In this document: positions 688 through 17,545 of the stretch, piece by piece
Layout: each line of letters begins with the position of its first letter
Numbering within the stretch: the stretch's first letter is position 1
Source: Desulfobacteraceae bacterium
GTDB lineage: Bacteria; Desulfobacterota; Desulfobacteria; Desulfobacterales; UBA11574
Reading direction: 5' to 3'
DNA: 18,707 nucleotides
Assembly (NCBI GenBank): GCA_002868985.1
Contig: PKTV01000276.1
Span: 1-18,707, forward strand
Program-made: the position numbers and the translations under genes
Notes under the pieces: generated by a model
What the model was told of the DNA's origin: nothing
Databases searched by the model: none
What the model saw: the letters and a program-made list of their open reading frames with translations, nothing else

Positions 688-1185
688 ATGATGATTACAG
701 AATTGCCAAAAGGTCTAACGATCAGAAATAGCAAGCCTTCAGACCATAAGCGAATCATCTCTGTGATGAAAGACTGGTGGGGGGGAAGAGACCTGACGTG
801 GATGTTGCCGAAACTGTTTCTTGTGCATTTTTGCGACACATCATTCATTATCGAAAAAGGTGACAACCTTATGGCTTTCTTGATCGGCTTTCTATCACAG
901 TCGAAAGCAAATGAAGGCTATATTCATCTTGTCGGGGTTCATCCCAATTATCGAGGTGTGGGGCTTGGAGAATTTTTATATCATCGTTTTTTTCAGATTT
1001 GTAAAAAAAATAACCGTGACACGATCAGGGCTTGCACATCGCCCGTGAATAAAGGGTCCATTGAGTTTCATAAAAAAATCGGATTCAATATTTTGAAAGG
1101 GGATGCTGAAGTTGACGGTGTTCAGGTGTCACTGGATTACAATCATCCAGGCGATTCGAAGGTATTGTTTGAAATAAAAATTTGA
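688..1185 (+). CDS. GNAT family N-acetyltransferase
   Basis: This 165-residue protein is a GCN5-related N-acetyltransferase that would transfer acetyl from acetyl-CoA to an amine. The acetyl-CoA-binding motif A is LVGVHPNYRGVGLGEFLY at about residues 81-98, containing the R-G-V-G-L-G pyrophosphate loop at 89-94. Motif B is NKGSIEFHKKIGF at about 121-133. The substrate is unknown. The gene starts with two consecutive ATGs, and either could be used; no Shine-Dalgarno sequence is visible, so translational coupling to the thioesterase gene 20 bp upstream is possible. The TGA stop (1183-1185) overlaps the first two bases of the inverted-repeat element at 1184-1333. Confidence 0.87.
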   Translation: MMITELPKGLTIRNSKPSDHKRIISVMKDWWGGRDLTWMLPKLFLVHFCDTSFIIEKGDNLMAFLIGFLSQSKANEGYIHLVGVHPNYRGVGLGEFLYHRFFQICKKNNRDTIRACTSPVNKGSIEFHKKIGFNILKGDAEVDGVQVSLDYNHPGDSKVLFEIKI

Positions 1186-1333
1186 CGGCTTCGTAAAAAG
1201 TCCATTTTCTGCGTTGCGCTTCATTTCGTGTTCACTGCGGCGTACATAAGTACGCCTCATTCCACGAAAATCACGACGCCTTTTTATCCCGCAGATTTTA
1301 TACGGGGGAACTTGAACTTTTTACGAAGCCGTC
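1184..1333. repeat. MITE-like nested palindromic element, 18-bp terminal inverted repeats
   Basis: The perfect 18-bp arms are GACGGCTTCGTAAAAAGT at 1184-1201 and its reverse complement at 1316-1333. Inside are TTCGTG/CACGAA and, at the centre, GGCGTAC (1239-1245), ATAA, GTACGCC (1250-1256). The whole 150 bp could fold as one long interrupted hairpin. Its left end supplies the GA of the acetyltransferase TGA stop. The core CTGCGGCGTAC-n-GTACGCCTCA matches the core of the element at 15297-15497. It encodes no transposase, so it is non-autonomous, or serves as a terminator-like structure. Confidence 0.85.
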
Positions 1334-1616
1334 TCAATTTTGACTTTTTACGAGTTCATCAAATTTAGAACCTCGAAATACATCTAATTACAAAAAGCAA
1401 GCAGGGCAGGTAAAAAAATAAGTTAAATAGTGTCCATCCATAAATGAGAATTTTTGTTTAAGATCCCCCGCTGGAAAGAACGGGATAAAAAGGCATGCGA
1501 AAAAAATAACCGCCCCGTTAAAGTACCGGGACAAGCCGGCATATATTTAATATTCCGAGGATTATTTTTTGAGCATAACGCAGATATTGGGCAAAAAGAC
1601 CATTTATGGATGGACA
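1186..1616. other. Convergent intergenic region made almost wholly of repeats
   Basis: This gap between a plus-strand and a minus-strand gene holds the element at 1184-1333 and most of the element at 1428-1619. Between them, about 1341-1363, is a short relic (GACTTTTTACGAGTTCATCA) resembling another element end. Small open frames here lie across the inverted repeats and look non-coding. Confidence 0.6.
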
Positions 1617-1619
1617 CTA
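1428..1619. repeat. MITE-like element, perfect 19-bp terminal inverted repeats with TA at both ends
   Basis: The left arm TAGTGTCCATCCATAAATG (1428-1446) and right arm CATTTATGGATGGACACTA (1601-1619) are exact reverse complements. The similarity continues inward at lower identity. If the outer TA on each side is a duplicated target, the element proper is GTGTCC...GGACAC, as in IS630/Tc1-type MITEs; that classification is inference. The right end provides the TAG stop of the minus-strand lipoprotein gene. The 192 bp has no transposase. Related ends occur at 15297-15497 and 17434-17545. Confidence 0.87.
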
Positions 1620-2111
1620 ACTGGCATCTGGAACGACGAATTCTTGCAGAGGCAGCTCACCTGTGGATTTAAACGGAATCGTCGAAGGCATTGTACCGCC
1701 TCCAAGCCGAAGACGTCCTGTGAGCTTATATCCGAGTTTTTCGGTTTCCGCCAGACCTCGCAATACCCTCACGACGTCTAAAACCGATGAATACAGCGTC
1801 ATGGGAATAAGGGCTGTTTCATAAGAAGGGATATTTACTTTGACATTGGCCACGCCGGTGGCCAACCGTTTTCCGTTGAGTTCGAGATCGCAATTGAGAC
1901 CTTTGATTTCCAGTGGGGTGTCATTGGTGTTAAAGACGCGCATTTCGATGGTAAAAACCGACTCAAAGATCTTTATTTCCTGAACGTTAAAATTTGCAAG
2001 GGTTATTCGGGGGGAATCCAACTGCTTACCCCATCCAGCACAACCGGACAATATCAAAAGAATGACGATTAACCCACCCAACAGGCTTATGTATTGCCGT
2101 AATGGAATCAT
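1617..2111 (-). CDS. LEA14-like (water stress/hypersensitive response domain) lipoprotein
   Basis: The product has a lipoprotein signal peptide: a short basic N-terminus, a hydrophobic stretch and the lipobox LSGC, with Cys24 as the lipidation site when read from the ATG at 2111. The mature part resembles late-embryogenesis-abundant type 2 (LEA14/WHy) domains, including the features NVQEIKIFESVFTIEMRVFN and NDTPLEIKGLNCDLELNG. It would sit at the inner or outer membrane facing the periplasm; its role is unknown. I chose the ATG at 2111 because it follows an AAGGCGG-type site and gives a normal-length signal peptide. An upstream GTG at 2144 would add 11 residues. The TAG stop lies exactly in the terminal repeat of the 1428-1619 element, so the C-terminus may have been set by that insertion. 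Confidence 0.82.
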   Translation of the reverse strand: MIPLRQYISLLGGLIVILLILSGCAGWGKQLDSPRITLANFNVQEIKIFESVFTIEMRVFNTNDTPLEIKGLNCDLELNGKRLATGVANVKVNIPSYETALIPMTLYSSVLDVVRVLRGLAETEKLGYKLTGRLRLGGGTMPSTIPFKSTGELPLQEFVVPDAS

Positions 2112-2270
2112 GTCCTTATCCGCCTTTCCCATGTTTTGACGCACGGCATTGCATGGACGATTTTTTGATCTTTAACATCCATCAATTTTCATTCAAGATT
2201 CAGGTTATATAGCAAATTCCCAATACCTTCACTATAGGATAACAAAGACATTGTGTCAACGAAACGGGAT

Positions 2271-3917
2271 TTAAAAAGGGGGTTGTCTGCCCGCAAATTT
2301 GGCCAAGGCTTTTCCTATTTGTGCTTCAGTGAAGGGTTTTTGAAGGATATCATTGACCCCTGAGGCATATGCCGTTTCATTGTCCTGGCCCTCGTTCTGG
2401 GTGGTTACCATGATGATGGGCAGCTCAACGTCGCTGTACCATTGCCGGACTCCCTTGGTGAATTCGATGCCGGTGATATCGGGCATGTTTAAGTCGGTGA
2501 GGATCACGTCGGGTTTTTCTTTTTGGACCCGTTCCAGAGCGTTGGCAGGGAATTCGAACAAATGGGATTCGCATCCCAAATTGTGGAGCACGGTTCTGTA
2601 AATGTTCAGAATCATCTTGGAGTCGTCCACGGCAAATATCTTCAGAGTGGCTTTTTCTTTTGCTGCCTTTTCCGGTGTAATCTGTTTGGCAAGATCATTG
2701 TGTCCTGCCTTTTCAAGGATTCTTGCAAAGTAGGATCGGACTTCAGGATGGGTTTTGTCGGTCAGATAATCGATGGCCGGCGTTTGAAAATAATCCTCAT
2801 CCAAAAGGTCCAAAAAGATGGTGTCACACTGGGAATCAATGATGGTTGTCATGATTTTCAAGGCTTCCGGGTCTTCAGAGCGGATTAGATTCCGGATACC
2901 ACCGGCCAGAGCGGCGTTGTAGTGGCGGTCGACGGCTTTTGCCGCAGCATTCCGAACGTTATCCACAGGGTCATTCAAACCGGCGGCCAACGTATAAACC
3001 CCTTTATCCAGCGGCAGCCTTCCCAGGGTTTCATACGCTGCAAATCGAACATTCGGATCTTCAGGCTGATGGTGTATAAGTTTTCGGATGGCTGGAATGG
3101 ATGCGCTGTCTCCGATGTCGCCGAGTACGTTCAAAGAGTGAATGATCAGATCGGGATTATCAACAAAAAGATTCTTGATCAAAATACGAATGCTCATCAC
3201 GCCGACGCCACCGAGTTTTTGCTTTACGGCGGTGCGTAAATGGGCGTGTTGCGACCCAAGTGTTTGATTGAGCATTTCCAGTGCTTCCGGAATCTGGATT
3301 TTGGCAATAATGTCAATGATCATAAGGTCCAGGTCAGAGTCCCCGCCAAGCCTGTCGCCCAGTTTCTGTATGGCCCCGGGTGTGGCCAGTGTACCCAAAG
3401 TGCGTATGGAAGCAATAATGACCTCATAATTACTAGAATATAGATATTCACTCACAGCGGTAACCGCTGAAGGGTCGGCGATCATTCCCAAAGCGATGAT
3501 GGCCGACTCAATGATTTTGACATCCTCTTCGTTGGTCAGGATATCCAGCAAGATCGGTACAGCCTCCTCAAACCGGATTTCTCCCGTGGCCTCTACCAGA
3601 AGTGCCTTGACGGGGGATTCTATTGTATTCGATAGCAAATCCGAAAGGATTTCCGGACCATCCAGTATCTTTGAAAACAAGGTCTCTTTGAGTTGTGGAA
3701 ATGATTCGGTAACGTCCGGGTTTTCAGCGATGACACCTGCCAGCAGGGGAATCGCAAAATCATCTTCTGCCCGACTGACTTCAAACAAGGCTTGTTTTTG
3801 GGCCTTTCGACTCACATGCTCCAGAGCGGAAAGAACGAGTTTCGCCTTGATCAAGTCCTTTTCTTTTATATCGAATCGAATCTCATCCAAAAGATCCTGT
3901 TCATTGATTTTTGCCAT
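2271..3917 (-). CDS. HEAT-repeat protein with C-terminal response-regulator receiver domain
   Basis: The product is about 548 residues. Roughly residues 20-400 are tandem alpha-helical HEAT/PBS-lyase-like repeats, recognisable by recurring units such as AVPILLDILTNEED, ALGMIADPSAV and TLGTLATPGAI. The last about 125 residues (from about 424) form a receiver domain with the acidic pair VDDS, the phospho-acceptor Asp in ILTDLNMP, the Thr of MVTT and the Lys of LQKPF, so phosphotransfer residues are intact. There is no DNA-binding or enzymatic output domain, so the repeats probably bind a partner. The ATG at 3917 is preferred because AAGGA lies 7 bases upstream; the longer frame opens with TTG at 3971. 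It lies 63 bp downstream of the HDOD gene on the same strand. Its histidine kinase is not in the window. Confidence 0.88.
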   Translation of the reverse strand: MAKINEQDLLDEIRFDIKEKDLIKAKLVLSALEHVSRKAQKQALFEVSRAEDDFAIPLLAGVIAENPDVTESFPQLKETLFSKILDGPEILSDLLSNTIESPVKALLVEATGEIRFEEAVPILLDILTNEEDVKIIESAIIALGMIADPSAVTAVSEYLYSSNYEVIIASIRTLGTLATPGAIQKLGDRLGGDSDLDLMIIDIIAKIQIPEALEMLNQTLGSQHAHLRTAVKQKLGGVGVMSIRILIKNLFVDNPDLIIHSLNVLGDIGDSASIPAIRKLIHHQPEDPNVRFAAYETLGRLPLDKGVYTLAAGLNDPVDNVRNAAAKAVDRHYNAALAGGIRNLIRSEDPEALKIMTTIIDSQCDTIFLDLLDEDYFQTPAIDYLTDKTHPEVRSYFARILEKAGHNDLAKQITPEKAAKEKATLKIFAVDDSKMILNIYRTVLHNLGCESHLFEFPANALERVQKEKPDVILTDLNMPDITGIEFTKGVRQWYSDVELPIIMVTTQNEGQDNETAYASGVNDILQKPFTEAQIGKALAKFAGRQPPF

Positions 3918-3980
3918 CCGCATTTCCTTTTTCTTAGTCAGATAAAGCTTGTTCGCGTTCAGGTTTAACAAAAGAAGGTG

Positions 3981-5000
3981 CTATTGTTCAGAAATATTTT
4001 GAGCGGCTTCCAAGACCTTGCCCATGATTTCGTTCATGTCGTCTTCTTGAATACCCAAAAATTCCATGGCCTTGTCATCCATCTGATACAACGTTCCGTC
4101 TATACCGAGTCCCAGACCCGTCATCATCGCGATGGCATCTGCCACATGAACGATGTAAGCCAATTTGCTGCCGTTTGACCGGGATGGGTGGTGGTGATAT
4201 CGTATGGCAACGGTTAAGGGTTTCGGTATGTTCCAGGTTTTGCATACCTCAGATGCGACTTCTGTATGGTCGAGTTCCAAAACTTTCTTTTCAGCATCCA
4301 GAAATGTGTGTTCACCATCGGCCATAAATTCCTCAAAGAGTTCCCACCTCTCCTGGATATACGAGTCAAGAATGAGTTTGCCGGAGTCATGAATGAGACC
4401 TGATGTAAAGGCGTCGTTTGATAATGATGGTTCTGTCTTTTTGGCGATAATCCTGGAACCAAAGGCAACTGCCAGAGAGTGTTTCCAAAGGGCTCCTGCA
4501 TCCAGCCCATAGCCCACCAGACTTTTGCTCAAAAGGCTGGCAGTACCCCCCATGGTAATGAGTTCTCCTAAGGTTTTATGTCCGAGGACAAGAGAAGCGC
4601 GTTGAATGGAGGTTACTTTACCGCTATACCCGTAGTATGGAGAGTTGGCCAGCTTCAGGATCTTGGCGGCAATGGCTTGATCGGTTTCAAAAAGATTTGC
4701 AAGCTCTTTAAAGTCCGATTTCGGATTTGCCATAATCTCACGGGCCTTAAGGACCGTTTGAGGCATGGGCGGTAAATCCTTCACGTTCCGCAAAATTTTC
4801 TTTTTTAAAACCTGGCCGGTTGGGCGATCGTTTTGCTTTTTTTTACTACGAAACTCGGAATTTATAGCTGACTTTGAGGTGAGATCGAGTTCGATGGTTC
4901 CCTTGCATGCCGGACAAGGAAAAGCGATCTTTTTACCCATTGGGAGACGTTCATCAGGGATGTCAAATACTTTGTTACAGTTCAGACAGTTTACCCGCAT
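3981..5000 (-). CDS. Zinc-ribbon plus HDOD domain signalling protein
   Basis: This 339-residue protein opens with an MJ0042-type zinc ribbon (Cys5-x2-Cys8 ... Cys29-x2-Cys32). After a basic linker comes an HDOD domain at about residues 70-290, starting with LPPMPQTVLKAREIM and containing NSPYYGYSGKVTSIQRASLVLG. HD-like residues are present: His174, His204-Asp205 in GLIHDSGKLIL, His245, a HHH at 269-271 and Asp288. HDOD proteins are usually regulatory modules of signalling or motility pathways, and whether this one hydrolyses anything is unknown. The ATG at 5000 has an AAGGGGG site upstream. It is the promoter-proximal gene of a pair with the HEAT/receiver protein, suggesting that both serve one pathway. 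Confidence 0.88.
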   Translation of the reverse strand: MRVNCLNCNKVFDIPDERLPMGKKIAFPCPACKGTIELDLTSKSAINSEFRSKKKQNDRPTGQVLKKKILRNVKDLPPMPQTVLKAREIMANPKSDFKELANLFETDQAIAAKILKLANSPYYGYSGKVTSIQRASLVLGHKTLGELITMGGTASLLSKSLVGYGLDAGALWKHSLAVAFGSRIIAKKTEPSLSNDAFTSGLIHDSGKLILDSYIQERWELFEEFMADGEHTFLDAEKKVLELDHTEVASEVCKTWNIPKPLTVAIRYHHHPSRSNGSKLAYIVHVADAIAMMTGLGLGIDGTLYQMDDKAMEFLGIQEDDMNEIMGKVLEAAQNISEQ

Positions 5001-5089
5001 ACAGAACCCCCTTGAAAATTATGGCGCTTTGAAATAATGAAACCGACGGTTGTCAGGGAATGAGTCTTTTGTATCAGACCAAGTGTCTC

Positions 5090-5104
5090 GCACAAAATAT
5101 GCCA
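5090..5104 (-). promoter_or_regulatory. Possible sigma54 (-24/-12) promoter for the HDOD gene
   Basis: The minus strand reads TGGCATATTTTGTGC, which keeps the GG-N10-GC spacing of sigma54 promoters but differs from TGGCACG-N4-TTGC at three positions. It lies about 90 bp upstream of the HDOD start. No upstream enhancer repeats were identified, so this is tentative. Confidence 0.22.
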
Positions 5105-5273
5105 AAACTGTGCATGGGAAAAATCGACAATAATTTCATAACACATTTAAATTATATACACAACCGATGGTTAAGGATTTGACGAGAAGTGTTACAAAGT
5201 GTCATATTCCTGACGCGCAGCTTTTTTCTATTTACCGATGGCATCCGTATAATTTTACCTTAAAAAATTTCCT

Positions 5274-5333
5274 GGTCTTTTCCTCTGTATTGGTGTTGTT
5301 GAAAATTAAGGGTGCGAAGCTCAAATAAACGAG
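5274..5333 (-). repeat. Dispersed leader repeat, copy 1
   Basis: On the minus strand the 37-base core (5323 down to 5287) runs from TGAGCTTCGCACCCTT to CAACACCAATAC. It aligns without gaps to copies at 6883-6919 (-) and 13148-13184 (+). The match to copy 2 extends to about 60 bp, ending in AAAAGACC. It lies upstream of the HDOD gene in sense orientation. Confidence 0.72.
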
Positions 5334-5371
5334 GTGAATCATACCGGCAGATCGTTTGCTCAAGAAAAACC

Positions 5372-5400
5372 TTGACACATTTTAAAATCCGGTCTGTATA
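5372..5400 (+). promoter_or_regulatory. Sigma70-type promoter of the isomerase gene
   Basis: TTGACA (5372-5377) is separated by 17 bases from TGTATA (5395-5400). TATATA two bases further on is an alternative -10. Transcription would begin near 5407 and leave a leader of about 78 bases with the alternative stems GGAGCA/TGCTCC (5409-5414 and 5435-5440) and GCCTG/CAGGC (5432-5436 and 5449-5453). Confidence 0.6.
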
Positions 5401-5484
5401 TAAAACATGGAGCAAGTAATAAATTAAAACGGCCTGCTCCCAAAAGATCAGGCTGCCGGCGAAAGTGTAAAAAGGAGCGTTAAG

Positions 5485-6240
5485 ATGGAAATGATCTCAG
5501 TGGAAAATCATGGCAAGGTTGTGTTTGCAAAGCTGAATCACGGCGTTTCCAATGCATTGAACCCAAAGGGGATTAAGGAACTGGAAGCGGTCTTAAAGCA
5601 GGTAAAAAACGATTCCGGTATAAACGGCTTTGTTCTGGGGAGCTCCAATGAGAAGTTCTTTTCCATCGGTTTTGATATTCCGGAGCTGTTTGAGATGAAC
5701 AGGGATGATTTCAGGGGTTTTTATCGTGTGTTCAATAAGGTCTGTTTGGATCTGTTTACACTGCCCAAACCCACGGTTGCGGCAATAACGGGCCACGCCA
5801 TTGCCGGTGGGTGCATTTTGGCACTGTGTTGTGATTATCGGTTCATTGCAAAAGGGCACAAGTTGATGGGCCTAAACGAGGTCAAACTGGGCTTGCCGGT
5901 TCCGTATCTTCCGGACAGGTTGCTACACGCTCTGGCAGGGGTTTGCAAGGCACGTGAGATGATGGAGAGCGGCAAGTTCTATCCATCGAATGAGGCACTT
6001 GAAATGGGCATTGTGGATAAAATTCTACCCATCGAGAATGTTGTGAAAGCGGCCATCGAACACGCCGACACGTTGGGGTCGCTGCCCAAGGTGGGGTATG
6101 AGATGATCAAACAGAATCGGGTGGAGGTGATCGAAGAACAGGTGACGGCTCGTCAGGATGAGAAGGAGGCATCTTTCATCGAGAGCTGGTATTCGGATGA
6201 GGCGCGTAAATGCTTGGAAGAAGCCATGAAGAAATTTTAA
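5485..6240 (+). CDS. Crotonase-fold enoyl-CoA hydratase/isomerase, probably a delta3,delta2-enoyl-CoA isomerase
   Basis: This 251-residue protein has the crotonase fold: oxyanion-hole regions FFSIGFDI (about 58-65) and AITGHAIAGGCILALCCDYR (about 100-119), then GLNEVKLGLP. Hydratases carry two catalytic glutamates. Here the first position is Ile111 (AGGCIL rather than GGCEL), while Glu132 in GLNE is kept. That single-Glu pattern and the GLNE-x2-LG wording resemble mitochondrial ECI1 isomerases, which shift a 3-enoyl-CoA double bond to the 2-position during oxidation of unsaturated fatty acids. Isomerase activity is therefore inferred and hydratase activity is less likely. The ATG at 5485 has AAGGAG 7 bases upstream, and a promoter lies at 5372-5400. 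It is a single-gene unit convergent with ogt. Confidence 0.88.
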   Translation: MEMISVENHGKVVFAKLNHGVSNALNPKGIKELEAVLKQVKNDSGINGFVLGSSNEKFFSIGFDIPELFEMNRDDFRGFYRVFNKVCLDLFTLPKPTVAAITGHAIAGGCILALCCDYRFIAKGHKLMGLNEVKLGLPVPYLPDRLLHALAGVCKAREMMESGKFYPSNEALEMGIVDKILPIENVVKAAIEHADTLGSLPKVGYEMIKQNRVEVIEEQVTARQDEKEASFIESWYSDEARKCLEEAMKKF

Positions 6241-6283
6241 ACGCCAACCTTTTTTTAGGAACGGTTCCCACGGATTTTTCGCA

Positions 6284-6760
6284 TTACCGATATTTTTGTT
6301 CCAGATCAAGCAGGGTCTGTTTCACTTCAATACCGCCGCCGAACCCGGTCAGTTTTCCACTGCTGCCGATAACGCGATGGCATGGAATAACAATAGGTAG
6401 GGGATTTCGGGCATTTGCCTGGCCCACGGCCCGACTCGCTTTTGGATTTCCAATGTTTTTGGCCAGTTCTCCATATGAAATGGTCTCTCCATATGGAACC
6501 TGACGAAGGGCCGTAAGTACCTTTTTTTGAAACGGTGTCGCGTTCAAACAAATGTCCAGGGAAAACGCTTTCAGTTTCCCCGCAAAATAAGCTTCAAGCT
6601 GGCGCAACACCTCTTGAAGGGGGTTGCGCTTTTTCACCCAATCGGATTCCGGCATAGCGGGATTGGCCCCTTTTGGAAAACTGATCAGACATGTTCCTTT
6701 ATCGTTTCCCGCCACCAGAAGCTTTCCCACAGGACTTTTCATATATTGATAATAGATCAT
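6284..6760 (-). CDS. ogt: Methylated-DNA-[protein]-cysteine S-methyltransferase (Ogt/AGT)
   Basis: This 158-residue protein is a full-length O6-alkylguanine-DNA alkyltransferase. It removes a methyl group from O6-methylguanine by suicide transfer to a cysteine. The active-site motif is PIVIPCHRVIG with Cys127. The helix-turn-helix and arginine-finger region is YGELAKNIGNPKASRAVGQA (about 96-115), followed by NARNP (116-120). The ATG at 6760 has AAGGAAG 7 bases upstream. It is monocistronic, and copy 2 of the dispersed leader repeat lies about 110 bp upstream in sense orientation. The Ada-type N-terminal regulatory domain is absent, so this is the repair enzyme only. Confidence 0.95.
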   Translation of the reverse strand: MIYYQYMKSPVGKLLVAGNDKGTCLISFPKGANPAMPESDWVKKRNPLQEVLRQLEAYFAGKLKAFSLDICLNATPFQKKVLTALRQVPYGETISYGELAKNIGNPKASRAVGQANARNPLPIVIPCHRVIGSSGKLTGFGGGIEVKQTLLDLEQKYR

Positions 6761-6869
6761 TGAAAAACTTCCTTTTTTTTCAAAGGCTTCTGAATAAACA
6801 GATAACTCAGGTTTCGTGCCTGAATATTACCAAAAGCAGTTAAAATAACAGGCTGATATAAATTTTTTC

Positions 6870-7156: not shown

Positions 7157-7214
7157 GTCTCTGCCAATTGAGCACCAGCGAAATCCCGCTTTGCGGGGCT
7201 GAGCTACTGGGGAT
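7157..7214 (-). pseudogene. Partial tRNA copy interrupted by a REP-like hairpin
   Basis: On the minus strand the sequence begins ATCCCCAGTAGCTCAG, identical to the 5' end of the tRNA-Asn gene. A roughly 26-base segment with the hairpin CCCGCAAAGCGGG then intervenes, and D-arm sequence CTCAATTGGCAGAG resumes. The anticodon arm, T arm and 3' acceptor strand are missing, so it cannot be a working tRNA. It looks like a 5' duplication of the neighbouring tRNA split by a mobile palindromic unit. Confidence 0.65.
7162..7198 (-). repeat. REP-like unit inside the tRNA relic
   Basis: The minus strand reads CCCCGCAAAGCGGGATTT, then CGCTG and GCTCAATTGGC. It matches the unit at 9462-9495 (CCCGCAAAGCGGGATTTTGC followed by TGCGCTCAACTTGC) almost throughout, and more distantly the units at 23-47 and 15417-15461. 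Confidence 0.6.
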
Positions 7215-9072: not shown

Positions 9073-9198
9073 TGGACTGACTCCTTTCTGACTTGAATCT
9101 TGCATGAAGATTAATGAGAATATTTAACTTTCTGCAATTATTTGGTTTATTAAACAATTGCCGCTTCAGATATAATTAAATTTTTGCTGAAAGAACTC

Positions 9199-9322
9199 GT
9201 GGAATAAGGGGTCGTAATGAAAGAACCTGCCCGGACTATTAATAAAGGTCTTTTGTTTTAACAGGAGTTTCATCTATAACGTTAAATCGACGATGGTTCT
9301 TTCAAAACGATCCCTAATCCAC
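9199..9322. repeat. MITE-like element with imperfect ~28-bp inverted ends
   Basis: The left arm (9199-9227, GTGGAATAAGGGGTCGTAAT then GAAAGAACC) and the reverse complement of the right arm (9295-9322, GTGGATTAGGGATCGTTTT then GAAAGAACC) agree at about four positions in five. The 124-bp unit has no coding capacity. Confidence 0.6.
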
Positions 9323-9461
9323 TCAGACAGCTTCCAGTCAAAAATTTAATCATATCTGAAGCTTATAGTGAAAGCCTCCAACTCGTACAAAATTCGGGTC
9401 TAAAATCACGAAATCTTCGCTTCAACTTAAATTGAGCGATTGTCGAGGTTGCCGCATATAA

Positions 9462-9495
9462 GCAAGTTGAGCGCAGCAAAATCCCGCTTTGCGGG
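9462..9495 (-). repeat. REP-like unit
   Basis: The minus strand reads CCCGCAAAGCGGGATTTTGC and ends with GCGCTCAACTTGC. The perfect stem CCCGC/GCGGG with an AAA loop is at 9483-9495. The same unit lies in the tRNA relic at 7162-7198. Confidence 0.6.
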
Positions 9496-10908: not shown

Positions 10909-12195
10909 TTATTTCTTTTCCCACCGCAAAAGTTCCGCCACCTTACTCAGGGTGCTTCCCTCTTTAATTTCTTCTCGTATGCGGTTTTCTCTCTCAAGTA
11001 CATCCATGCTTCGGTTGGCATATTCTACGGCGATGGCTTTCGGCAGCACGACCACCCCGTCGTCGTCGCCCAGCAGCCAATCCCCGGGTTCTACGCGCAT
11101 ATTGCCCACCGTTACAGGAACACCGATCTCTCCGAACCCTTTGGGTTCGCCGGCATTGGGCATCACCAGTCTGCTGAACGCCGGGAATTTCATTGCCAAA
11201 ATTTCAGGGCTGTCTCTCAGGCCGCCGTCGATGACAACGCCGCCAAGATTCCTTTGAACCGCCGAATGCGTTGCCAGCTCTCCCCAGAGGGCGGGCCCCG
11301 CCCCACCGGCGTCGATAACAATAATTTCACCCGGCTGTGCCACGTCGATGGCCTGAACCGGTTTGGCCCAGTCTCCGGGATATGTTCTTACGGTAACCGC
11401 CTGTCCCACCATTCGTATGCCTGGAAAAAGCGGTCGAATTCCCTGCAGAACCCCCCCCCGATGCAATGCATCCGAAAGGTTCGCTGACGATACCATTTCC
11501 AGAATTTCCCGAATCTGAGACTCGCCTTTTCGTTTAAAAAGGGTGGTGCTGATGCTTTTTCCGGTATCGAGCCCCTGGCGGATTTCTCGAGCCGCCTGTT
11601 CAGGATCCATGGCTTTGGTGATGGCGCCTCCCACAATAACGATGGCTGCACCGGCCTCCACCGCTCTGGCAGCGGTCTCGGAATTTATACCTCCGGCCAC
11701 CGCCACCGGGATGGACAATGCTTCGCTGACCTGGCGTAGAGCGTCGAAAGGATCTTTACCTTCCATCTGCTCGTCGATGGCGCAATGTACCGACACATAG
11801 TCAGCCCCAAAGTCCTCGACCTGCTTTGCTCTGGACAGAACATCATCCACTGCGATCATATCCACCACAATTTTTGCCCCATAGTTTTTTCCGGCCTGGA
11901 TGCACTCCCGGATGGTCGCATCGCTGGATGCCCCGAGCACGTCAACGATATTGGCACCTGCTTTGGCTGCAGTTTCGACCTCGGTTCTGCCGGCATCCAT
12001 GATCTTCATATCTGCAACGATGGTGCTGTCAGGAAAAAGTTTCCTGAGTTCCCTGACGGCATGTAGACCTTCACTCTTGATGAGCGGTGTGCCGGCTTCA
12101 AGCCAGTCAACGCCGCCGGCAATTCCGGCCTGGGCGCTTTTCAGCGCCCGTTTCAAATCTACAAAATCTAAAGCCAATTGCAGGATTGGTTTCAT
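10909..12195 (-). CDS. hxlA: 3-hexulose-6-phosphate synthase fused to an RraA-like (HMG/CHA aldolase family) domain
   Basis: This is a 428-residue fusion. Residues 1-about 212 are hexulose-6-phosphate synthase of the orotidine-phosphate decarboxylase superfamily, with Asp10 in LALD, the D-x-K-x2-D motif DMKIMD (62-67), a His in VSVHCAI and phosphate-binding AVAGGI and VIVGGAI. It joins formaldehyde and ribulose-5-phosphate, or runs in reverse to make ribulose-5-phosphate. Residues about 222-420 are RraA-like, with GELATH near 305 and RDSPE at 327-331. That RD-x2-E pattern belongs to the metal-dependent aldolase/decarboxylase members, so the domain may be an enzyme rather than an RNase E inhibitor. 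Such fusions are known from methanogenic archaea. The ATG at 12195 has AAAGGAGG 4 bases upstream. It is 10 bp after hxlB and 2 bp before hisS. Confidence 0.92.
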   Translation of the reverse strand: MKPILQLALDFVDLKRALKSAQAGIAGGVDWLEAGTPLIKSEGLHAVRELRKLFPDSTIVADMKIMDAGRTEVETAAKAGANIVDVLGASSDATIRECIQAGKNYGAKIVVDMIAVDDVLSRAKQVEDFGADYVSVHCAIDEQMEGKDPFDALRQVSEALSIPVAVAGGINSETAARAVEAGAAIVIVGGAITKAMDPEQAAREIRQGLDTGKSISTTLFKRKGESQIREILEMVSSANLSDALHRGGVLQGIRPLFPGIRMVGQAVTVRTYPGDWAKPVQAIDVAQPGEIIVIDAGGAGPALWGELATHSAVQRNLGGVVIDGGLRDSPEILAMKFPAFSRLVMPNAGEPKGFGEIGVPVTVGNMRVEPGDWLLGDDDGVVVLPKAIAVEYANRSMDVLERENRIREEIKEGSTLSKVAELLRWEKK

Positions 12196-12205
12196 ATTTC
12201 CTCCT

Positions 12206-12745
12206 TTACTCAATTACCGCGTGTCTGGATGAAACGCTTCCGACATCCTTTTTACGGGTCTGATATATGTTTAACACCACCGCCTCCAAAAAGAGAAAGG
12301 CGGATTGTTCAAATAGGGAACCAGCCATCTGAGCTGATTCCGGCTCACCATTCCGGCACAGTTTGGTGGTTCCGGGAAGGTGGAGGCTGTGATCCACCAG
12401 TGAACCGATTTCGGATTCAATATTTCCAAGGATACCATATGTTTCGGCCTCGTATTGTTTGGCGAGCCTTACCGCCTCGAGGGTCGACGGAGTTTTCCCG
12501 GATCCGCTTAAAACGATGAGCAGATCGTTATTTGTAATGGCGGGTGTAATGGTTTCGCCGCAAAAGTAAACGCTGTATCCCAAATGCATCAATCGCATAC
12601 AAAAACATCGCAGGATAAAACCGGTTCTTCCTTGGGCGGAAAAAAAGATGGATTCCGCGTTTAGGATCCTTTGGATAAAATCTTTGACAAGTTTCCCGGT
12701 GATATTTTTCATCAGGCACCGGTTCTCCTCCAGAATAATTTCCAT
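12206..12745 (-). CDS. hxlB: 6-phospho-3-hexuloisomerase (SIS domain)
   Basis: This roughly 179-residue SIS-fold isomerase interconverts 3-hexulose-6-phosphate and fructose-6-phosphate, the partner step of the synthase encoded 10 bp downstream. Supporting features are AQGRTGFILRCFCMRLMHLG (after IFFS), ETITPAITNNDLLIVLSGSG, the sugar-phosphate-binding SGSGKT, and the family-typical end GSLFEQSAFLF ... SSRHAVIE. The start is uncertain. ATG 12745 has only a weak GGGA site and ATG 12712 has GGAGGAG 12 bases upstream. The frame stays open for about 20 codons above 12745, back to a TGA, with plausible protein sequence but no ATG, GTG or TTG. It is the first gene of the hxlB-hxlA-hisS unit. Confidence 0.9.
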   Translation of the reverse strand: MEIILEENRCLMKNITGKLVKDFIQRILNAESIFFSAQGRTGFILRCFCMRLMHLGYSVYFCGETITPAITNNDLLIVLSGSGKTPSTLEAVRLAKQYEAETYGILGNIESEIGSLVDHSLHLPGTTKLCRNGEPESAQMAGSLFEQSAFLFLEAVVLNIYQTRKKDVGSVSSRHAVIE

Positions 12746-12820
12746 CAGTTCCCGGAAGGTAAACGATTTATCCTTTGTATTGTTTTTTGATGTCGGATAA
12801 TGTTTCAGAACAACCTCTCA

Positions 12821-12844
12821 ATCGGGTTTCCCCGATAAATCGGG
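12821..12844 (-). promoter_or_regulatory. Alternating hairpin blocks in the hxlB leader
   Basis: ATCGGG (12821-12826), CCCGAT (12831-12836) and ATCGGG (12839-12844) let the middle block pair with either flank, so only one hairpin forms at a time. It lies about 75-100 bases upstream of the hxlB start. It could be an attenuator or merely a REP-like relic; there is no adjacent T-run. Confidence 0.3.
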
Positions 12845-13100
12845 ATCTACTATTCGCTTCGACGCGTGTCAGGTTTCAGTAGTACCAAAAATTGGCTGAA
12901 CACTGAAACCAAAAAGTCTTGGAAATTTATTAATAAACTGGTAATGCATCCGTTTTCGATCAGACACTATTTAGAATGAAACCTTCCAAATTCTATCGTA
13001 TAAAAAACCTTATTTTTGAGATGTCAACGTATGGCCAATAGGGCTGCGTGTCAAGAAAATATTAAACACCCAACATATCGAAATGATACGCTGCTTTGGC

Positions 13101-13125
13101 TTGACAATGGCTGTTTCACCATTGT
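13101..13125 (+). promoter_or_regulatory. Possible -35 box overlapped by an operator-like inverted repeat
   Basis: TTGACA (13101-13106) overlaps ACAATGG (13104-13110), which is inverted as CCATTGT (13119-13125). A poor -10 (TAGTCA) follows at 18 bases. The arrangement suggests a repressor site on a promoter for the DUF2520 gene, but neither part is strong. Confidence 0.25.
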
Positions 13126-13141
13126 AGTCACTGTAAATATC

Positions 13142-13234
13142 ATAATTCAAGTTTCACACCCTTTATTTTTAACAGCACCAATATCGTTTAGCAGGTGAGC
13201 ACATTCCGTGAATACGTACTGAAACTTGAATTAT
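13142..13234 (+). repeat. Dispersed leader repeat, copy 3, enclosed by a perfect 15-bp inverted repeat
   Basis: ATAATTCAAGTTTCA (13142-13156) is the exact reverse complement of TGAAACTTGAATTAT (13220-13234), with 63 bases between. The 37-base core at 13148-13184 matches the copies at 5287-5323 (-) and 6883-6919 (-) at 29 of 37 positions each without gaps. It lies in the leader of the DUF2520 gene, ending 24 bases before the ATG. Confidence 0.78.
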
Positions 13235-13258
13235 ATGCAAACTCTCAAGGAAAACAAA

Positions 13259-14128
13259 ATGAAACCTTTATTTGCCATCGTCGGATGTGGAAAAGTGGGA
13301 ACAGCCCTTGCGATATTTTTAACCCGGGCCGGATACCGGCCAGCCGGATTTGCCAGCAAAAATCTGTCATCAGCCAAACATGTCGCCGACATTGTTCTTT
13401 CCGATCATTTCAGCGATGTTCCATGGGACATCACCCGACATGCGGATGTCGTGTTTATCACAACACCCGACAGTGTTATCAAAGACACGTGTAATGCTAT
13501 TTCCCAAAACATTGGCTTTGCCGATAATGCTGTTGTGATGCACTGTAGCGGGGCACTGGCGTCATCTGTGTTGTCGAGTGCGAAAACATGCGGTGCATGG
13601 ATAGGATCCATGCACCCGTTACAGAGTTTTGCTTCGGCCGATTACAAGACCAATCCTTTTCAAGGGATCATTGTTTCTTTAGAAGGTGAGGATCCGGCAG
13701 TTAACACCGCTAAAACAATTGCCGCAGATCTCGGTGGGACGGTGGTGACCCTTCTAACGGAGGCCAAAACCCTTTACCATGCATCGGCAGTGGTGGCCTC
13801 AAACTATCTGGTCACGCTGCTTGACCTTGCTGTTCGACTCATCGAAGAAGCCGGAGTCAAGCGGCAAGATGCGTTTAATCTATTAAAACCCTTGATTGAA
13901 GGGACGTTGTCAAATATAGGAAAAGTCGGCGTTCAAAAAGCGCTGACCGGTCCCATTGTCAGAGGAGATGTCAAAACCGTAGAAAAGCATATCGAGGAAA
14001 TCGGATTCAAAAGACCGGAGCTTCTCGCTTTGTATAAAATGCTTGCTTTTTATACCATCGATATTGCAGCGGCAGGGGATTCGATTTCGGAGTCATCCAT
14101 AAAAGAACTGAAAAGGATAACCACCTAA
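13259..14128 (+). CDS. Rossmann-fold DUF2520 domain protein (putative NAD(P)-dependent oxidoreductase)
   Basis: This 289-residue protein starts with a nucleotide-binding Rossmann motif, FAIVGCGKVGTALA, with G-x-G-x2-G at residues 9-14. Next come FITTPD and VMHCSGALASSVL at the end of the Rossmann domain. The HPLQSF signature introduces the DUF2520 all-helical domain, which includes YHASAVVASNYLVTLLDLA and later GTLSNI and KALTGPIVRGD. The architecture is that of ketopantoate-reductase or F420/NADP-oxidoreductase-like dehydrogenases, but the substrate is not established. The ATG at 13259 follows AAGGA by 7 bases; the longer frame from TTG 13226 has no such site and overlaps the inverted repeat. 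The TRAP dctP gene follows after 190 bp. Confidence 0.85.
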   Translation: MKPLFAIVGCGKVGTALAIFLTRAGYRPAGFASKNLSSAKHVADIVLSDHFSDVPWDITRHADVVFITTPDSVIKDTCNAISQNIGFADNAVVMHCSGALASSVLSSAKTCGAWIGSMHPLQSFASADYKTNPFQGIIVSLEGEDPAVNTAKTIAADLGGTVVTLLTEAKTLYHASAVVASNYLVTLLDLAVRLIEEAGVKRQDAFNLLKPLIEGTLSNIGKVGVQKALTGPIVRGDVKTVEKHIEEIGFKRPELLALYKMLAFYTIDIAAAGDSISESSIKELKRITT

Positions 14129-14216
14129 ATTTTGAACGGATGTACTCAAGTTTAGCATCCGAGTGTTGCTAAAAATCCTTTAAAGTAGCAGGTCAAAATA
14201 AATTTGTTCTTGTCCG

Positions 14217-14262
14217 CTTTACCGCTCCGCAAGCGGGATCTTCGACCGGCGGGAAGGTAAAG
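14217..14262 (+). promoter_or_regulatory. Structured element between DUF2520 gene and dctP
   Basis: CTTTACC (14217-14223) and GGTAAAG (14256-14262) enclose a smaller stem CCGCT/AGCGG. A short T-run follows a few bases later. It may act as a weak terminator for the upstream gene or as part of the dctP leader. Confidence 0.3.
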
Positions 14263-14318
14263 TATGTTTTTTCCGAATTATCGTACGACGCCAAAACAGA
14301 GAATTTAAGGAGGATCAT

Positions 14319-15299
14319 ATGATGAAAAAACTGCTATGGCTTATTGCCGTGTGTGTTCTGCTGTTATATTCCGGTTCTGCCATGGCCTTGACTCGGATTA
14401 AGCTGGGTGTTGTCACCAAGCCAGGGTCCGCACAAAACATTGTGGCAGAAAAATTTAAAGAACTTATTGAACAGGCGTCAAATGGTAATATAAGTGTTCA
14501 GATCTTCCATTCCAAATCCATCGGTAATGAAACTGAAATCCTGCAGCAGATACAGATGAACACGATACAGATGGGAATCATTACCGGTGGCCCTTTTGAT
14601 ACATTTGACCCGGTTGTTAGGGTGATCAACTATCCCTTTCTGTTCAAGGACAATGAACAAGCCGATGAGGTCCTGGATGGCCCGTTGGGGGCTAAAATAT
14701 TGAAGAGCCTGGAAAGGGCGGGATTTAAGGGGCTCTGTTTTTCAGAAAACGGTTTCAGGAACCTTACCAACAACAAACATTCCGTGAAAAGTCCAGATGA
14801 CATCAAAGGACTCAAAATTCGAGTCATGGCCTCTGCGCTTCACAGATCCATCTGGCAGGCTTTGGGTGCGAATCCCACACCGATGCCCTGGCCAATCTAC
14901 ACCGAGTTGGAGCAGGGTGTTATCGACGGCCAGGAAAATCCCCTCTGGGTCATGGAAGTCTATAAATTTTATGAAATTCAGAAATACATGACCCTGACCC
15001 GCCATGTCTACTCTCCCCACATTGACGTGGCTTCATTAAAATGGTGGAAGACGTTGGATGCCAACACACAGGACTTGATTCAAAGAACCATCCATGAAGC
15101 TGCTGTGTTTCAGCGAAATGACAATCGATCCAAAAATGCAGCCCGGCTTGCGCTTCTAAAGGAAAAGGGGATGAGGATCGAAGCACATCCGGATATAGAT
15201 GCCTTTCGTGACAAAGTGGCCGGACTCAAAGACATGGATCTTTACAGCGAACCGAGGGTTCAGGCGCTGCTGATAGAGATGCTGAATGCAACCAAATAG
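14319..15299 (+). CDS. dctP: TRAP transporter substrate-binding protein (DctP family)
   Basis: This 326-residue periplasmic solute-binding protein is of the DctP/TAXI-unlike, C4-dicarboxylate TRAP class. A Sec signal peptide spans residues 1-23 (basic MMKK, hydrophobic core, SAMA before the cut). The mature protein has RIKLGVVTKPGSAQNIVAEKF as its first strand and helix, the ligand-binding Arg region DIKGLKIRVM, and ELEQGVIDGQENP, the usual family signature near the binding cleft. It would deliver an organic acid to the DctQM permease encoded downstream. The substrate cannot be told from sequence. The ATG at 14319 follows AAGGAGG by 5 bases. The TAG stop coincides with the end of an inverted-repeat element, and 381 bp separate it from dctQ. 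Confidence 0.93.
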   Translation: MMKKLLWLIAVCVLLLYSGSAMALTRIKLGVVTKPGSAQNIVAEKFKELIEQASNGNISVQIFHSKSIGNETEILQQIQMNTIQMGIITGGPFDTFDPVVRVINYPFLFKDNEQADEVLDGPLGAKILKSLERAGFKGLCFSENGFRNLTNNKHSVKSPDDIKGLKIRVMASALHRSIWQALGANPTPMPWPIYTELEQGVIDGQENPLWVMEVYKFYEIQKYMTLTRHVYSPHIDVASLKWWKTLDANTQDLIQRTIHEAAVFQRNDNRSKNAARLALLKEKGMRIEAHPDIDAFRDKVAGLKDMDLYSEPRVQALLIEMLNATK

Positions 15300-15497
15300 T
15301 TTCCGTTCATAAATGGTTCTTTCTCCGGTGAGCAGCGTTCTCCGTGGGTTTCCGCCTGCGGCGTACTCGACGTACGCCTCAGCGAAAACCCTTGTGCGGC
15401 CCCCGTTAAAAACAAACGGGATTTCGTAACTGATTTAAAAAAATAAAGGGACTCAACTTGCTCACCGGAAAAACCTCACATTTATGAATCGGAAACT
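15297..15497. repeat. MITE-like element with near-perfect 19-bp ends
   Basis: TAGTTTCCGTTCATAAATG (15297-15315) is mirrored by CATTTATGAATCGGAAACT (15479-15497), with one inserted base. The centre is GGCGTAC (15360-15366), TCGAC, GTACGCC (15372-15378). The stretch TTCTCCG-GGGTTTCCG-GCGTAC-GAAAACCC aligns with the core of the element at 17434-17545. A second hairpin, CCCGTT/AACGGG, lies at 15402-15420. The left end forms the dctP stop codon. Confidence 0.82.
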
Positions 15498-15680
15498 TTC
15501 TCTTGATATCTGAATATTACAAGTATTGAATTTACTGAAGAGGTCATTCGACAAGATTCAGGAAATATCTTTCCTGTAAATGAAATTTAACTGTCAGGCA
15601 AGATGTATCAATAATTTACCAATGAAATCAATCTATTAAATGTTCTCCTCATTTTATTTGCGATCAATTGAGGTAGAAAA
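15300..15680. other. Intercistronic region between dctP and dctQ
   Basis: It is gene-free. Most of the left half is the element at 15297-15497, which includes a REP-like unit at 15417-15461. The right half is AT-rich and holds a hairpin CAGGAAA-TATC-TTTCCTG (15559-15576) without a T-run. Confidence 0.55.
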
Positions 15681-16166
15681 ATGGATGCTCTTGAACGGAT
15701 CAGCCGCTCTGTAAATCACTGGGTCGAATACGTTCTTTTTGGCCTTGGTTTCGCCATGTCCGTTGTTGTTGCCGTCCAGGTTTTTTTTCGTTATGCGTTA
15801 AATGATTCTCTATTCTGGTCAGAAGAACTGGCCCGCTATCTTCTGGTATGGTTAACTTTTCTGGGGGCTTCCGTTGCCTACCGTCGTAACATCCATCCGG
15901 GTGTTGATATTGTTTACACTCGGATGCCGGCGTCTATCCAAAGAACGATCTCAATTTTTATCCACTTCATCTCAACAGTCCTGTTCGGCGTTATGATTTT
16001 TTATGGGATTCAATTCTCTTATTTTGTTCGTTTGCAAATATCCCCGGCCTTGTATTTACCCAAATGGATTGTTTTCAGCATTATCCCCTTAAGCGGAATT
16101 ATTTTCATGATTCACGGCGTTACATTTCTAGTCGGTGAAATAAAAGGAACGGACCGTGACCACTGA
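15681..16166 (+). CDS. dctQ: TRAP transporter small permease subunit (DctQ family)
   Basis: This 161-residue integral membrane protein has four predicted helices, roughly residues 15-37, 48-68, 90-112 and 128-152. The family signature VQVFFRYALNDSLFWSEELA, followed by RYLLVWLTFLGASVAYRR, marks the second half of helix 1 and helix 2. DctQ forms the permease with DctM and takes substrate from DctP using a sodium gradient. The ATG at 15681 has GAGG 7 bases upstream. Its 3' end overlaps the start of dctM by 11 bases, indicating translational coupling. Confidence 0.93.
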   Translation: MDALERISRSVNHWVEYVLFGLGFAMSVVVAVQVFFRYALNDSLFWSEELARYLLVWLTFLGASVAYRRNIHPGVDIVYTRMPASIQRTISIFIHFISTVLFGVMIFYGIQFSYFVRLQISPALYLPKWIVFSIIPLSGIIFMIHGVTFLVGEIKGTDRDH

Positions 16167-17436
16167 AATTTTACTTCTATCCCTGCTTTTCCTTTTTGTC
16201 ATCAATACCCCCATTGCTATCTCTATCGGGATGGCATCCATTTTAGGAATACTGATCAAAGGCGATTTTCCCTTGATGATGGTTGTTCAGAGAATGTTCG
16301 GGGGAATAGATTCCTTTCATCTTATGGCAGTACCGCTTTTTATGTTTGTCGGGGTGATCATGGAAGCGGGAGGGATCAGCCGCAGAATCATCGATTTTGC
16401 AAACGCACTTGTGGGATGGCTTCCCGGAGGATTGGCTGCTGTGACGATTGTTTCGGCCATGTTTTTTGCCGGCATATCCGGCTCGGCTGCCGCTGATACT
16501 GCTGCGGTGGGTGCTATTTTGATACCGGCCATGAAGAATTCGGGGTACGAATCCGATTTTGCAGCTGCGGTTCAGGCATCCGGGGGTTCCATCGGCGTGA
16601 TTATTCCCCCTTCGATTCCCATGATTATTTTTGGTTTTTTGACCGGAGTCTCCATCGGGCAGCTGTTTGCCGGCGGAATTTTGCCGGGAGTCCTCATCGG
16701 TATAACCCTCGTGGGTGTTTCGACCTACATTTCCTGGAAAAAAGGGTATGCTGCCACGACCCCCTTTTCGATGACCCAGGTCTGGTACAATTTTAAACGA
16801 GCCATCCTTGCACTGGGAACCCCGGTGATCATCCTGGGGGGCATCCTTTTTGGTATTTTTACGGCAACGGAATCTGCGGCCGTGGCCGTGGTGTATGCGC
16901 TGTTTGTCGGTATGTTTGTATACAAAAAAATTAAAGTTAAAGACCTTGTTCGCCTTTTCAGGGACGGTGCCATAACATCATCTATTGTCATGTTTATTAT
17001 TGCTACAGCGTCAATATTCAGCTGGATCGCAGCCATTGAGGACATCCCTGCCAGTCTGGCCGGTTCGCTGCTTGGAATGACTCAAAATCCGGTCATGCTG
17101 CTCTTGATCATCAATCTGATATTGCTCATTGCCGGAACATTTGTGGAAACAACAGCGGCTTTGATCCTATTGGTCCCCATGATTACGGCAATGGTTTCCA
17201 CTTTGGGCATTGATATGATTCAGCTTGGGGTTATTGTTGTCACCAATCTGGCCATTGGCATGCTCACGCCGCCCATGGGAATATGCCTTATCGTCTCCGG
17301 CGCCATTTCCGGCGACAATCTGGCTGCCATCAGCAGGCGCATTGTGCCATTTTTAGCGCTGCTTCTCATTGACCTTTTGATAATTACCTTTTACTCTCCG
17401 TTGACGATGTGGCTGGCTCGAATGGTAGCTAAATAG
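16156..17436 (+). CDS. dctM: TRAP transporter large permease subunit (DctM family)
   Basis: This 426-residue polytopic protein is the ion-coupled transport channel of the TRAP system. Family features include NTPIAISIGMAS, PLFMFVGVIMEAGGISRRII, the small-residue loop GISGSAAADTAAVGAILIPAM, GGSIGVIIPPSIPMIIFG and LTPPMGICLIV; about a dozen hydrophobic helices are present. The start is GTG at 16156, with AAGGA 7 bases upstream, inside the end of dctQ. The TAG stop (17434-17436) is the first three bases of another inverted-repeat element. The length is normal for the family, so the element has not obviously truncated it. Confidence 0.94.
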   Translation: MTTEILLLSLLFLFVINTPIAISIGMASILGILIKGDFPLMMVVQRMFGGIDSFHLMAVPLFMFVGVIMEAGGISRRIIDFANALVGWLPGGLAAVTIVSAMFFAGISGSAAADTAAVGAILIPAMKNSGYESDFAAAVQASGGSIGVIIPPSIPMIIFGFLTGVSIGQLFAGGILPGVLIGITLVGVSTYISWKKGYAATTPFSMTQVWYNFKRAILALGTPVIILGGILFGIFTATESAAVAVVYALFVGMFVYKKIKVKDLVRLFRDGAITSSIVMFIIATASIFSWIAAIEDIPASLAGSLLGMTQNPVMLLLIINLILLIAGTFVETTAALILLVPMITAMVSTLGIDMIQLGVIVVTNLAIGMLTPPMGICLIVSGAISGDNLAAISRRIVPFLALLLIDLLIITFYSPLTMWLARMVAK

Positions 17437-17545
17437 TGTCCATCCATAAAGGGTCTTTTCTCCGCTGAACTTATTTTCCGAGGGTTTCCGGCTGAGACGT
17501 ACTTCGTGTACGTTTCGCCGAAAACCCTATTTATGAATTGGACAC
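17434..17545. repeat. Compact inverted-repeat element at the dctM stop codon
   Basis: TAGTGTCCATCCATAAA (17434-17450) has the same sequence as the arm at 1428-1444. Its inverted partner is TTTATGAATTGGACAC (17530-17545), with a few differences. Inside, AGGGTTTCCGG and CCGAAAACCCT flank the hairpin ACGTAC-TTCGT-GTACGT (17497-17513). It lies between convergent dctM and the peptidase gene and could also serve as a bidirectional terminator. Confidence 0.8.

Follow-up and report, generated by a model that had tools for sequence, protein, structure and literature searches.

Gene stop codons at the ends of probable ISNCY-type miniature elements in a Desulfobacteraceae contig coincide with the elements' insertion target

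Contig PKTV01000276.1 of a Desulfobacteraceae bacterium (UBA11574), 18,707 nt in length, read on its forward strand and referred to here in its entirety as the window, belongs to assembly GCA_002868985.1 (3.05 Mb in 577 contigs, 89.7% complete; hereafter the own genome). It carries four genes which all stop exactly at the end of a short inverted-repeat element, as can be read directly in the sequence. These are a GNAT acetyltransferase gene (688-1185, plus strand; Pfam GNAT) with the stop codon TGA at 1183-1185, the gene of an LEA_2-domain lipoprotein (1617-2144, minus strand; Pfam LEA_2) with a stop complementary to 1617-1619, and two genes of a TRAP transporter, namely dctP for the binding protein (14319-15299, plus strand; Pfam DctP; stop TAG at 15297-15299) and dctM (16156-17436, plus strand; Pfam DctM; stop TAG at 17434-17436), with dctQ (15681-16166, plus strand; Pfam DctQ) lying between them. 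The initial annotation of the window, which had claimed that four genes end on element ends, is thereby confirmed at each of these genes. The TGA of the acetyltransferase gene consists of a host T and the first two bases, GA (1184-1185), of the arm GACGGCTTCG; the stops of DctP, DctM and the lipoprotein are all TAG, in which the host provides TA and the element its first G.

The window elements measure about 110-200 bp and encode nothing. Elements 2, 3 and 4 share the arm GTGTCCATCCATAAATGG, with the variant GTTTCCGTTCATAAATGG at dctP, and the element proper starts with G at 1430, 15299 and 17436 as well as at 1617 on the minus strand, exactly as had been suggested for an element beginning with G behind a TA. 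The accompanying statement that the arms begin with TAG holds for the G, which is the element's own, whereas the TA belongs to a 6-bp target. Element 2 (1430-1617, minus strand) is an ISNCY-type miniature inverted-repeat transposable element (MITE) of 188 bp, the TGG arm of which meets the lipoprotein stop. It lies between the target copy TAAATA on its far side (1424-1429) and the copy TAACTG (1618-1623; CAGTTA on the minus strand), which are identical at 4/6 positions, and the TA of the latter together with the element's G forms the present TAG. Element 3 (15299-15497, plus strand) follows the target-position hexamer CAAATA (15293-15298) at the dctP stop and is given from its left terminus to an internal pseudo-arm. 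Likewise, element 4 (17436-17545, plus strand) follows the hexamer TAAATA (17430-17435) at the dctM stop and consists of a left arm and internal sequence up to a pseudo-arm. Positions 15497 and 17545, previously taken as element ends, are both such pseudo-arms, beyond which conserved element sequence runs on in other copies. A possible right tail of element 4, a diverged arm with two mismatches, may extend over 17546-17582 (plus strand) and end at 17582; this assignment is weak, and no matching target copy was found for it (2/6). The four elements, which had been treated as one set, comprise three ends of one MITE family, and element 1 (1184-1333; arms GACGGCTTCGTAAAAAG; hairpin of -63.2 kcal/mol) is a MITE-like repeat of a different, second family.

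Some further features of these elements may be recorded here. The stretch 15400-15465 of element 3 (CCCGTTAAAAACAAACGGG...) is unmatched in the copy of genome G005 and is perhaps a nested insertion. At the right side of element 4, a promoter-like match (9/12) is located at 17539-17568, in a region with 8 promoter-like matches vs 4.0 (standard deviation 2.3) in shuffles. In loci L106 and L108, the outward arm reads CATTTATGGATGGACAC and contributes an ATG (M-D-G-H) that is in phase with some of the frames downstream; elements may thus provide start codons as well.

The arm of the first family, here called GTGTCC family, was found 90 times in the own genome with at most one mismatch, while the reversed control gave no match. 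Complete pairs mostly span 140-230 bp, and these short, multi-copy repeats lack a transposase gene, which supports their earlier description as MITE-like. Besides the own genome, the arm is present in 34 of 59 searched relatives, including 23/23 of the same family, and among the named matches listed (80 of 111) most are Desulfobacterales or 'Deltaproteobacteria' assemblies. The flanking hexamers of paired elements are 6/6 identical in 20 of 107 cases (a set that includes internal arms) vs 1.5 in shuffled partners, and identity of the flanks in these 107 pairs is raised at exactly six positions, which points to a 6-bp target duplication. Broken down by pair type, 6/6 duplications occur in 16/39 TGG/TGA, 4/13 TGG/TTC and 0/73 TGG/long pairs. 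The 'long' arm must therefore be internal, since none of its 73 pairs shows such a duplication and conserved sequence of the element extends beyond it. Directly behind the duplication, a purine (A or G) stands on 85 of 96 sides, and a symmetrised target matrix from 34 sites reads [T/C]TA[A/G][C/T]TA[A/G], i.e. the palindrome ~YTARYTAR. An origin from IS630/Tc1-type elements, as initially proposed, was rejected, because the flank identity spans six positions instead of a 2-bp TA and the full-length relatives carry an ISNCY-family transposase. Hence, the TA noticed earlier represents the end of a 6-bp target and not a 2-bp duplication. No IS630 model was among the NCBIfam matches of two of these full-length copies, IS630 transposases themselves not having been searched for.

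Insertion sequences (ISs) of the ISNCY family, of which ISDol1 is an example, were located in related genomes by profile search with the transposase model NF033593. Matches were obtained in 14 of 24 family genomes, six of them over the cut-off, and order-wide in 139 of 291 genomes, 28 of them over the cut-off. End calling across the order covered 17 loci with a recognised open reading frame (ORF), of which seven have the ends of the MITEs, three have unrelated or weak ends and seven have none. The resulting seven IS copies are 1664-1697 bp long with GTGTCC ends, five of them with an exact 6-bp TANNTA duplication and two with 5/6. Five come from five family genomes (1664-1676 bp; exact duplications TAATTA, TAATTA, TAGATA and TAACTA, one 5/6), and of the two further copies one has an exact TAGGTA, the other 5/6 and a length of 1697 bp. 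Most of them have the end sequence GTGTCCRTCC and some have GTGTCCGTCCATAAATCGG or GTGTCCATCCATAAATTG, compared with the MITE arm GTGTCCATCCATAAATGG. Two of the transposases were tested against NF033593 and scored 438 and 456 bits (cut-off 325); both carry the domains DDE_Tnp_1 and DUF772. Among 195 plasmid records, the 12 listed share 44.1-47.2% identity with the transposase of locus L374, and most are annotated as ISRm17 family. Thus, the MITE family shares ends and target with an ISNCY-family (ISRm17-like) IS of related genomes, MITEs and ISs alike displaying a 6-bp duplication of a TANNTA target, and we infer that its transposase mobilises the MITEs in trans. In arm pairs 0.6-4 kb apart (window, L031-L170), no transposase was seen in the longest frames listed, and in genome G013 an arm pair of 650 bp flanks a small gene that looks phasin-like by eye. 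Five weak matches (E about 5) came from a search of plasmids with a 30-nt element end.

Based on these features, the coincidence of element ends and stops would find a simple explanation. Elements 2, 3 and 4 probably belong to a MITE family that is moved by transposases of the ISNCY family (ISRm17-like), which insert with a 6-bp stagger at the palindrome Y-TARYTA-R. This target holds TAA or TAG at two positions per strand, the first TA triplet and the last TA plus the next base, so that just one of the three frames on each strand can accommodate it within an ORF, and it often occurs at real stops. If the site lies over a stop at offset -4, the stop is contained entirely in the duplicated hexamer; if it lies at offset 0, the stop is rebuilt at the junction from TA and the G of the element. 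TAG is thus regenerated upon insertion at a stop codon, because the target carries stop triplets and the element begins with G, and the protein is unchanged in either register.

Stop offsets were measured from the TA touching the element, with 0 denoting TA plus G and -4 the first target triplet. Counts and excess tests used arms with at most one mismatch from four sets, i.e. the own genome, named loci of other species, and the genomes G013 and G037. The named-loci set holds the 80 listed of 111 stretches and keeps a few likely chance matches (Clostridia, Bacteroidales, Cecembia), and the stretches of G013 and G037 are part of their 102 and 108 exact matches, respectively (100 listed each). 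The final count leaves out the internal 'long' arms, any duplicate flanks and five records of named loci (L092, L117, L127, L138 and L155), which were regarded as part of the G037 assembly; in an early offset tally, ten poor pairs had been entered as single arms. Gene stops peak at offset 0, where host TA and element G combine, and at -4, where all bases are host bases; YTARYTAR spells a stop codon in precisely these two registers. Altogether, 79 of 378 true ends carry a gene stop at one of them (46 at 0, 33 at -4) vs 19.3 expected, or 23.6 with a sharpened matrix. Register +13, the only one with the target inside an ORF, accounts for 12/378 ends. The excess recurs in each set (p < 0.001 throughout), with 20/102 ends vs 3.0 expected in the own genome, 22/126 vs 6.7 at the named listed loci, 19/84 vs 6.0 in G013 and 18/66 vs 3.6 in G037. 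The earlier suspicion that four out of four exceeds chance is borne out by these numbers, and the genome-wide search for an excess at in-frame stops, proposed at the same time, gave a positive result in the own genome as well as in other species.

A rather trivial cause of such an excess would be crowding between genes, i.e. elements are kept out of genes, gene ends are near and TAG or TAA is common in an AT-rich target. Indeed, non-coding DNA makes up no more than 16-19% of the sequence but takes 40-42% of the target-matrix weight, and TAR is part of the target. The null, however, was itself drawn from actual non-coding sites, with weights from the target matrix, and was exceeded in all four sets, which makes chance a quite unlikely explanation. 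Compared with unoccupied non-coding TANNTA sites, the excess is significant in 4/4 sets, also with Y and R flanks; this comparison counts the five records of G037 too, as well as those internal arms that carry the hexamer. Relative to gene ends 5-60 nt upstream, with denominators that include internal arms, p values of 8.5e-5 (own genome), 0.044 (G013) and 3.1e-6 (G037) were obtained.

Orthologues of the four genes bear on the order of events. The initial annotation had held that the elements supply the stops and, as one of two possibilities, trim C-termini, and had named beforehand orthologues ending at the same codon without an element as evidence to the contrary; exactly this was found (DctM 8/9, DctP 7/7). 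DctM orthologues (82-88% identity) end at codon 426 in 8/9 genomes and at 427 in one, 6/9 using TAG, and none of the nine carries an arm with at most one mismatch at its stop; in G019, the sequence after the stop begins with TAATTTCCAGCC, possibly a remnant. All 12 DctP orthologues (77-95% identity) end at codon 326, followed in 7/12 by unrelated sequence and in 5/12 by arm-like sequence (by eye; clear in G003, G005 and G002, faint in G014 and G019). For the lipoprotein, five of ten orthologues end at codon 175 (two with an internal TAG), among them G001 (89%) and G004 (77%), four end at codons 172-176, and one cannot be read because of Ns. Three GNAT orthologues are readable over their full length; the stop lies at codon 165 in two, including that of G004 (73%), which ends with TAA at this same codon, and at 169 in one. 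As supporting evidence only, empty sites were reconstructed by removing the element and one target copy, upon which TAA or TAG was regained in 6/6 offset-0 genes, including the lipoprotein gene, where TAA returns at the same place (duplication 4/6); two of these cases have 6/6 and four have 4/6 target matches. Since element-free orthologues end at the same codon, the stops of the window's genes are older than the elements.

Two of the DctP relatives deserve separate mention. In G002 (L256, ~1690-2772), dctP and arm-like sequence are directly followed by an M16-type peptidase gene without dctQ and dctM in between, and DctP lacks about 29 residues. In the window, an M16-type peptidase gene lies beyond dctM, and the L256 arrangement fits recombination between same-orientation elements at the dctP and dctM stops. 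Locus L245 (G003, DctP 95% identical) carries an element at the same dctP stop with only a 26-nt match to the window's element, which suggests either that the element was exchanged or that this site was entered a second time.

Truncation, i.e. insertion at a TA in coding 3' ends which makes a new TAG and is kept where trimming is harmless, could draw on the junction itself, as offset-0 stops do use the element's G next to TA in the way originally described. In addition, the 12 of 378 ends with a stop inside the arm at +13 are in the register expected for insertion within an ORF, and in four such cases with recognisable duplications the empty-site stops lie at +15, -9, +15 and +6 nt. Yet the stops at -4 (33/378) use no element base, and truncation should presumably fill +13 about as often as 0, where counts of 12 vs 46 were found. 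Together with the orthologues and, as weaker evidence, the empty sites, this led us to reject C-terminal trimming for the window's GTGTCC-family genes, to which the verdict applies, and renders truncation highly improbable; the second family was tested in this respect only at GNAT.

A functional role, in which the hairpin behind the stop protects or ends the messenger RNA (mRNA) and selection retains copies at stops, is a further possibility. The elements form stable hairpins: the 141-bp form (consensus of 21 copies) folds into one long hairpin of -47.9 kcal/mol, the energy is -44.5 kcal/mol for element 4 (17430-17555; z -4.3) and -38 for the left part of element 3 (z -3.2). Partial stretches of element 2 (z 0.12) and the right part of element 3 (z -0.35), however, fold no better than shuffles, no terminator-like site (GC-rich hairpin plus T-run) was detected at elements 3 or 4 when scanning 14900-17700, and an Rfam scan of the window gave only a tRNA. 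The element at the dctP site looks old, as it matches one at the same site in G005, a member of another genus (85% over 94 nt, 80% over 41 nt). It also sits between dctP and dctQM, where unequal expression, a known trait of TRAP operons, would be useful; nevertheless, 7/12 DctP orthologues do without it. Retention by selection might further be read from orientation, since TGG ends lie at stops more often than TGA/TTC ends (62/243 vs 10/79, p = 0.02). A stronger bias (62/243 TGG vs 1/89 'long' arms) was dropped, the long arm being internal, which leaves a modest bias between true ends; the own-genome orientation count was 18/55 vs 1/29, and the listed named loci did not repeat it (15/93 vs 5/22). 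Copies at stops and elsewhere have diverged to a similar extent, with 1.00 vs 1.14 mismatches of 16 in the terminal inverted repeats of complete copies (n = 15 and 37) and 0.37 vs 0.33 in TGG arms (n = 62 and 181; strongly diverged arms not sampled), which gives no support to the adoption as stop-plus-terminator modules considered in the initial annotation. Overall, a general function of this kind is rather unlikely, and target choice with tolerance is favoured over adoption, which is possible at single sites such as dctP.

Several observations weigh against an explanation by target choice and should be considered together. The expected counts rest on genes defined as ORFs of at least 80 aa, and the two ends of one element are not independent in the counts. 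With the narrower TARYTA compared to plain sites, the excess is significant in 3/4 sets, and in the strictest definition, TARYTA with Y/R flanks, which leaves 4 to 42 sites per set, in only 1/4, a loss of significance that speaks for crowding between genes. Relative to gene ends 5-60 nt upstream, the named listed loci show no significant excess (p = 0.39). Among the orthologues, DctM of G008 ends one codon later (427) and GNAT of G017 four codons later, and the empty sites are weak, as 4/6 matches are common in shuffles (~20/107) and a purine usually follows the duplication anyway. At elements 3 and 4, a target duplication cannot be recognised (1 to 2/6) and right ends are not established; their assignment to the ISNCY MITE family, made by left arm and internal sequence only, is a putative one. 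Finally, a search of the own genome (89.7% complete, 577 contigs) gave no match to NF033593, so that the copies there may be remnants, or else the assembly may lack the parent.

Taking all this into account, the GTGTCC family very probably represents ISNCY-mobilised MITEs whose target overlaps pre-existing stops, leaving the proteins unchanged, and avoidance of damage would explain the many copies at such sites. A three- to four-fold excess at stops goes beyond what the target sequence accounts for. Tentatively, a target YTARYTAR composed of stop triplets and a 5'-terminal G might be regarded as a damage-avoiding strategy, which may also favour real gene ends via a feature of translated or transcribed 3' ends; if true, a preference for such ends would account for this excess, but we consider this broader idea a possible rather than a probable one. 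In more general terms, a transposon can be kept out of open frames by nothing more than its target sequence. For annotators this implies a warning, as an element-encoded stop need not indicate a truncated gene.

The second family (GACGG) differs in these respects. Its arm has 10 matches in the own genome with at most two mismatches, and its flanks prefer AANNTT, which the element 1 copy matches at 3/6 positions. Among 13 pairs with both flanks, one 6/6 and three 5/6 matches hint at a duplication of 6 bp, and one pair fits 8 bp instead. Over the fetched loci, from which the own-genome contigs C344 and C418, both with GACGG matches, were left out, 74 distinct arms show gene stops at -1 (TGA, 7) and +10 (TAA, 8), which might include real truncations. 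The GACGG target holds no stop triplet, and hence its coincidences with stops need an explanation of their own. Element 1 stands as a separate family, the GA end of which likewise leaves the GNAT stop at the codon of the G004 orthologue.

Elsewhere in the window, a further repeat candidate is the inverted repeat 9163-9362 (arms 9163-9186/9339-9362, 96% complementary; inner pair 9204-9227/9295-9318), which by eye lies between two tRNA-synthetase-like genes. A 22-nt sequence occurs twice (7176-7197 and 9474-9495, 95% identical) and ends in a small GC-rich hairpin (AATCCCGCTTTGCGGG). The region 10909-12745 holds a putative fused hexulose-phosphate-synthase-like and RraA-like frame, followed by a putative SIS-domain isomerase-like gene (both by eye).

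The closest described relative of the parent element is probably ISRm17 of Sinorhizobium meliloti, one copy of which has the ends TGCCCATCCATAAAC / TGACCGTCCATAAAC next to TAG, which is nearly the MITE arm. Of the two copies inspected, however, one shows no such ends and the other no clear 6-bp duplication. Moreover, ISNCY/ISRm17 elements are transposase-coding ISs, in contrast to the window elements of ~110-200 bp, which code for nothing. Among small repeats, YPAL and ERIC elements are known to occur at stop codons. ERIC/IRU, RUP and Correia elements are likewise short MITEs that form hairpins and lie next to genes; their termini carry TA, and for RUP a link to IS630-Spn1 exists, whereas the GTGTCC family has a 6-bp duplication and an ISNCY parent. 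ERIC can affect the stability of upstream mRNA (PMC2229807). SPRITE elements of Streptococcus pneumoniae are described as enriched near gene 3' ends with possible co-option as terminators (PMC3049150); they contain a U-rich tract, unlike elements 3 and 4 with their missing hairpin-plus-T-run. In titles and abstract openings, no description of the GTGTCC repeat or of stop-codon targeting by ISNCY elements was found. The best parallel is provided by BOX of S. pneumoniae, for which the same study states that the repeat encodes the stop codon of 36 coding sequences and that orthologue alignment gave no strong evidence of truncation (PMC3049150). Likened by description, BOX thus shares repeat-encoded stops without evident truncation with the Desulfobacterales MITE, while repeat and host are different, and a stop-like target palindrome was not seen as an explanation in the part of the study consulted. 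Accordingly, repeats encoding stops without evident truncation are already in print, and what is added here is a Desulfobacterales MITE with its ISNCY parent, a target consensus, the two-register explanation and a comparison of orthologues for four genes, which together offer a simple and checkable reason why some bacterial MITEs seem to encode the stops of unrelated genes without the proteins being shortened.

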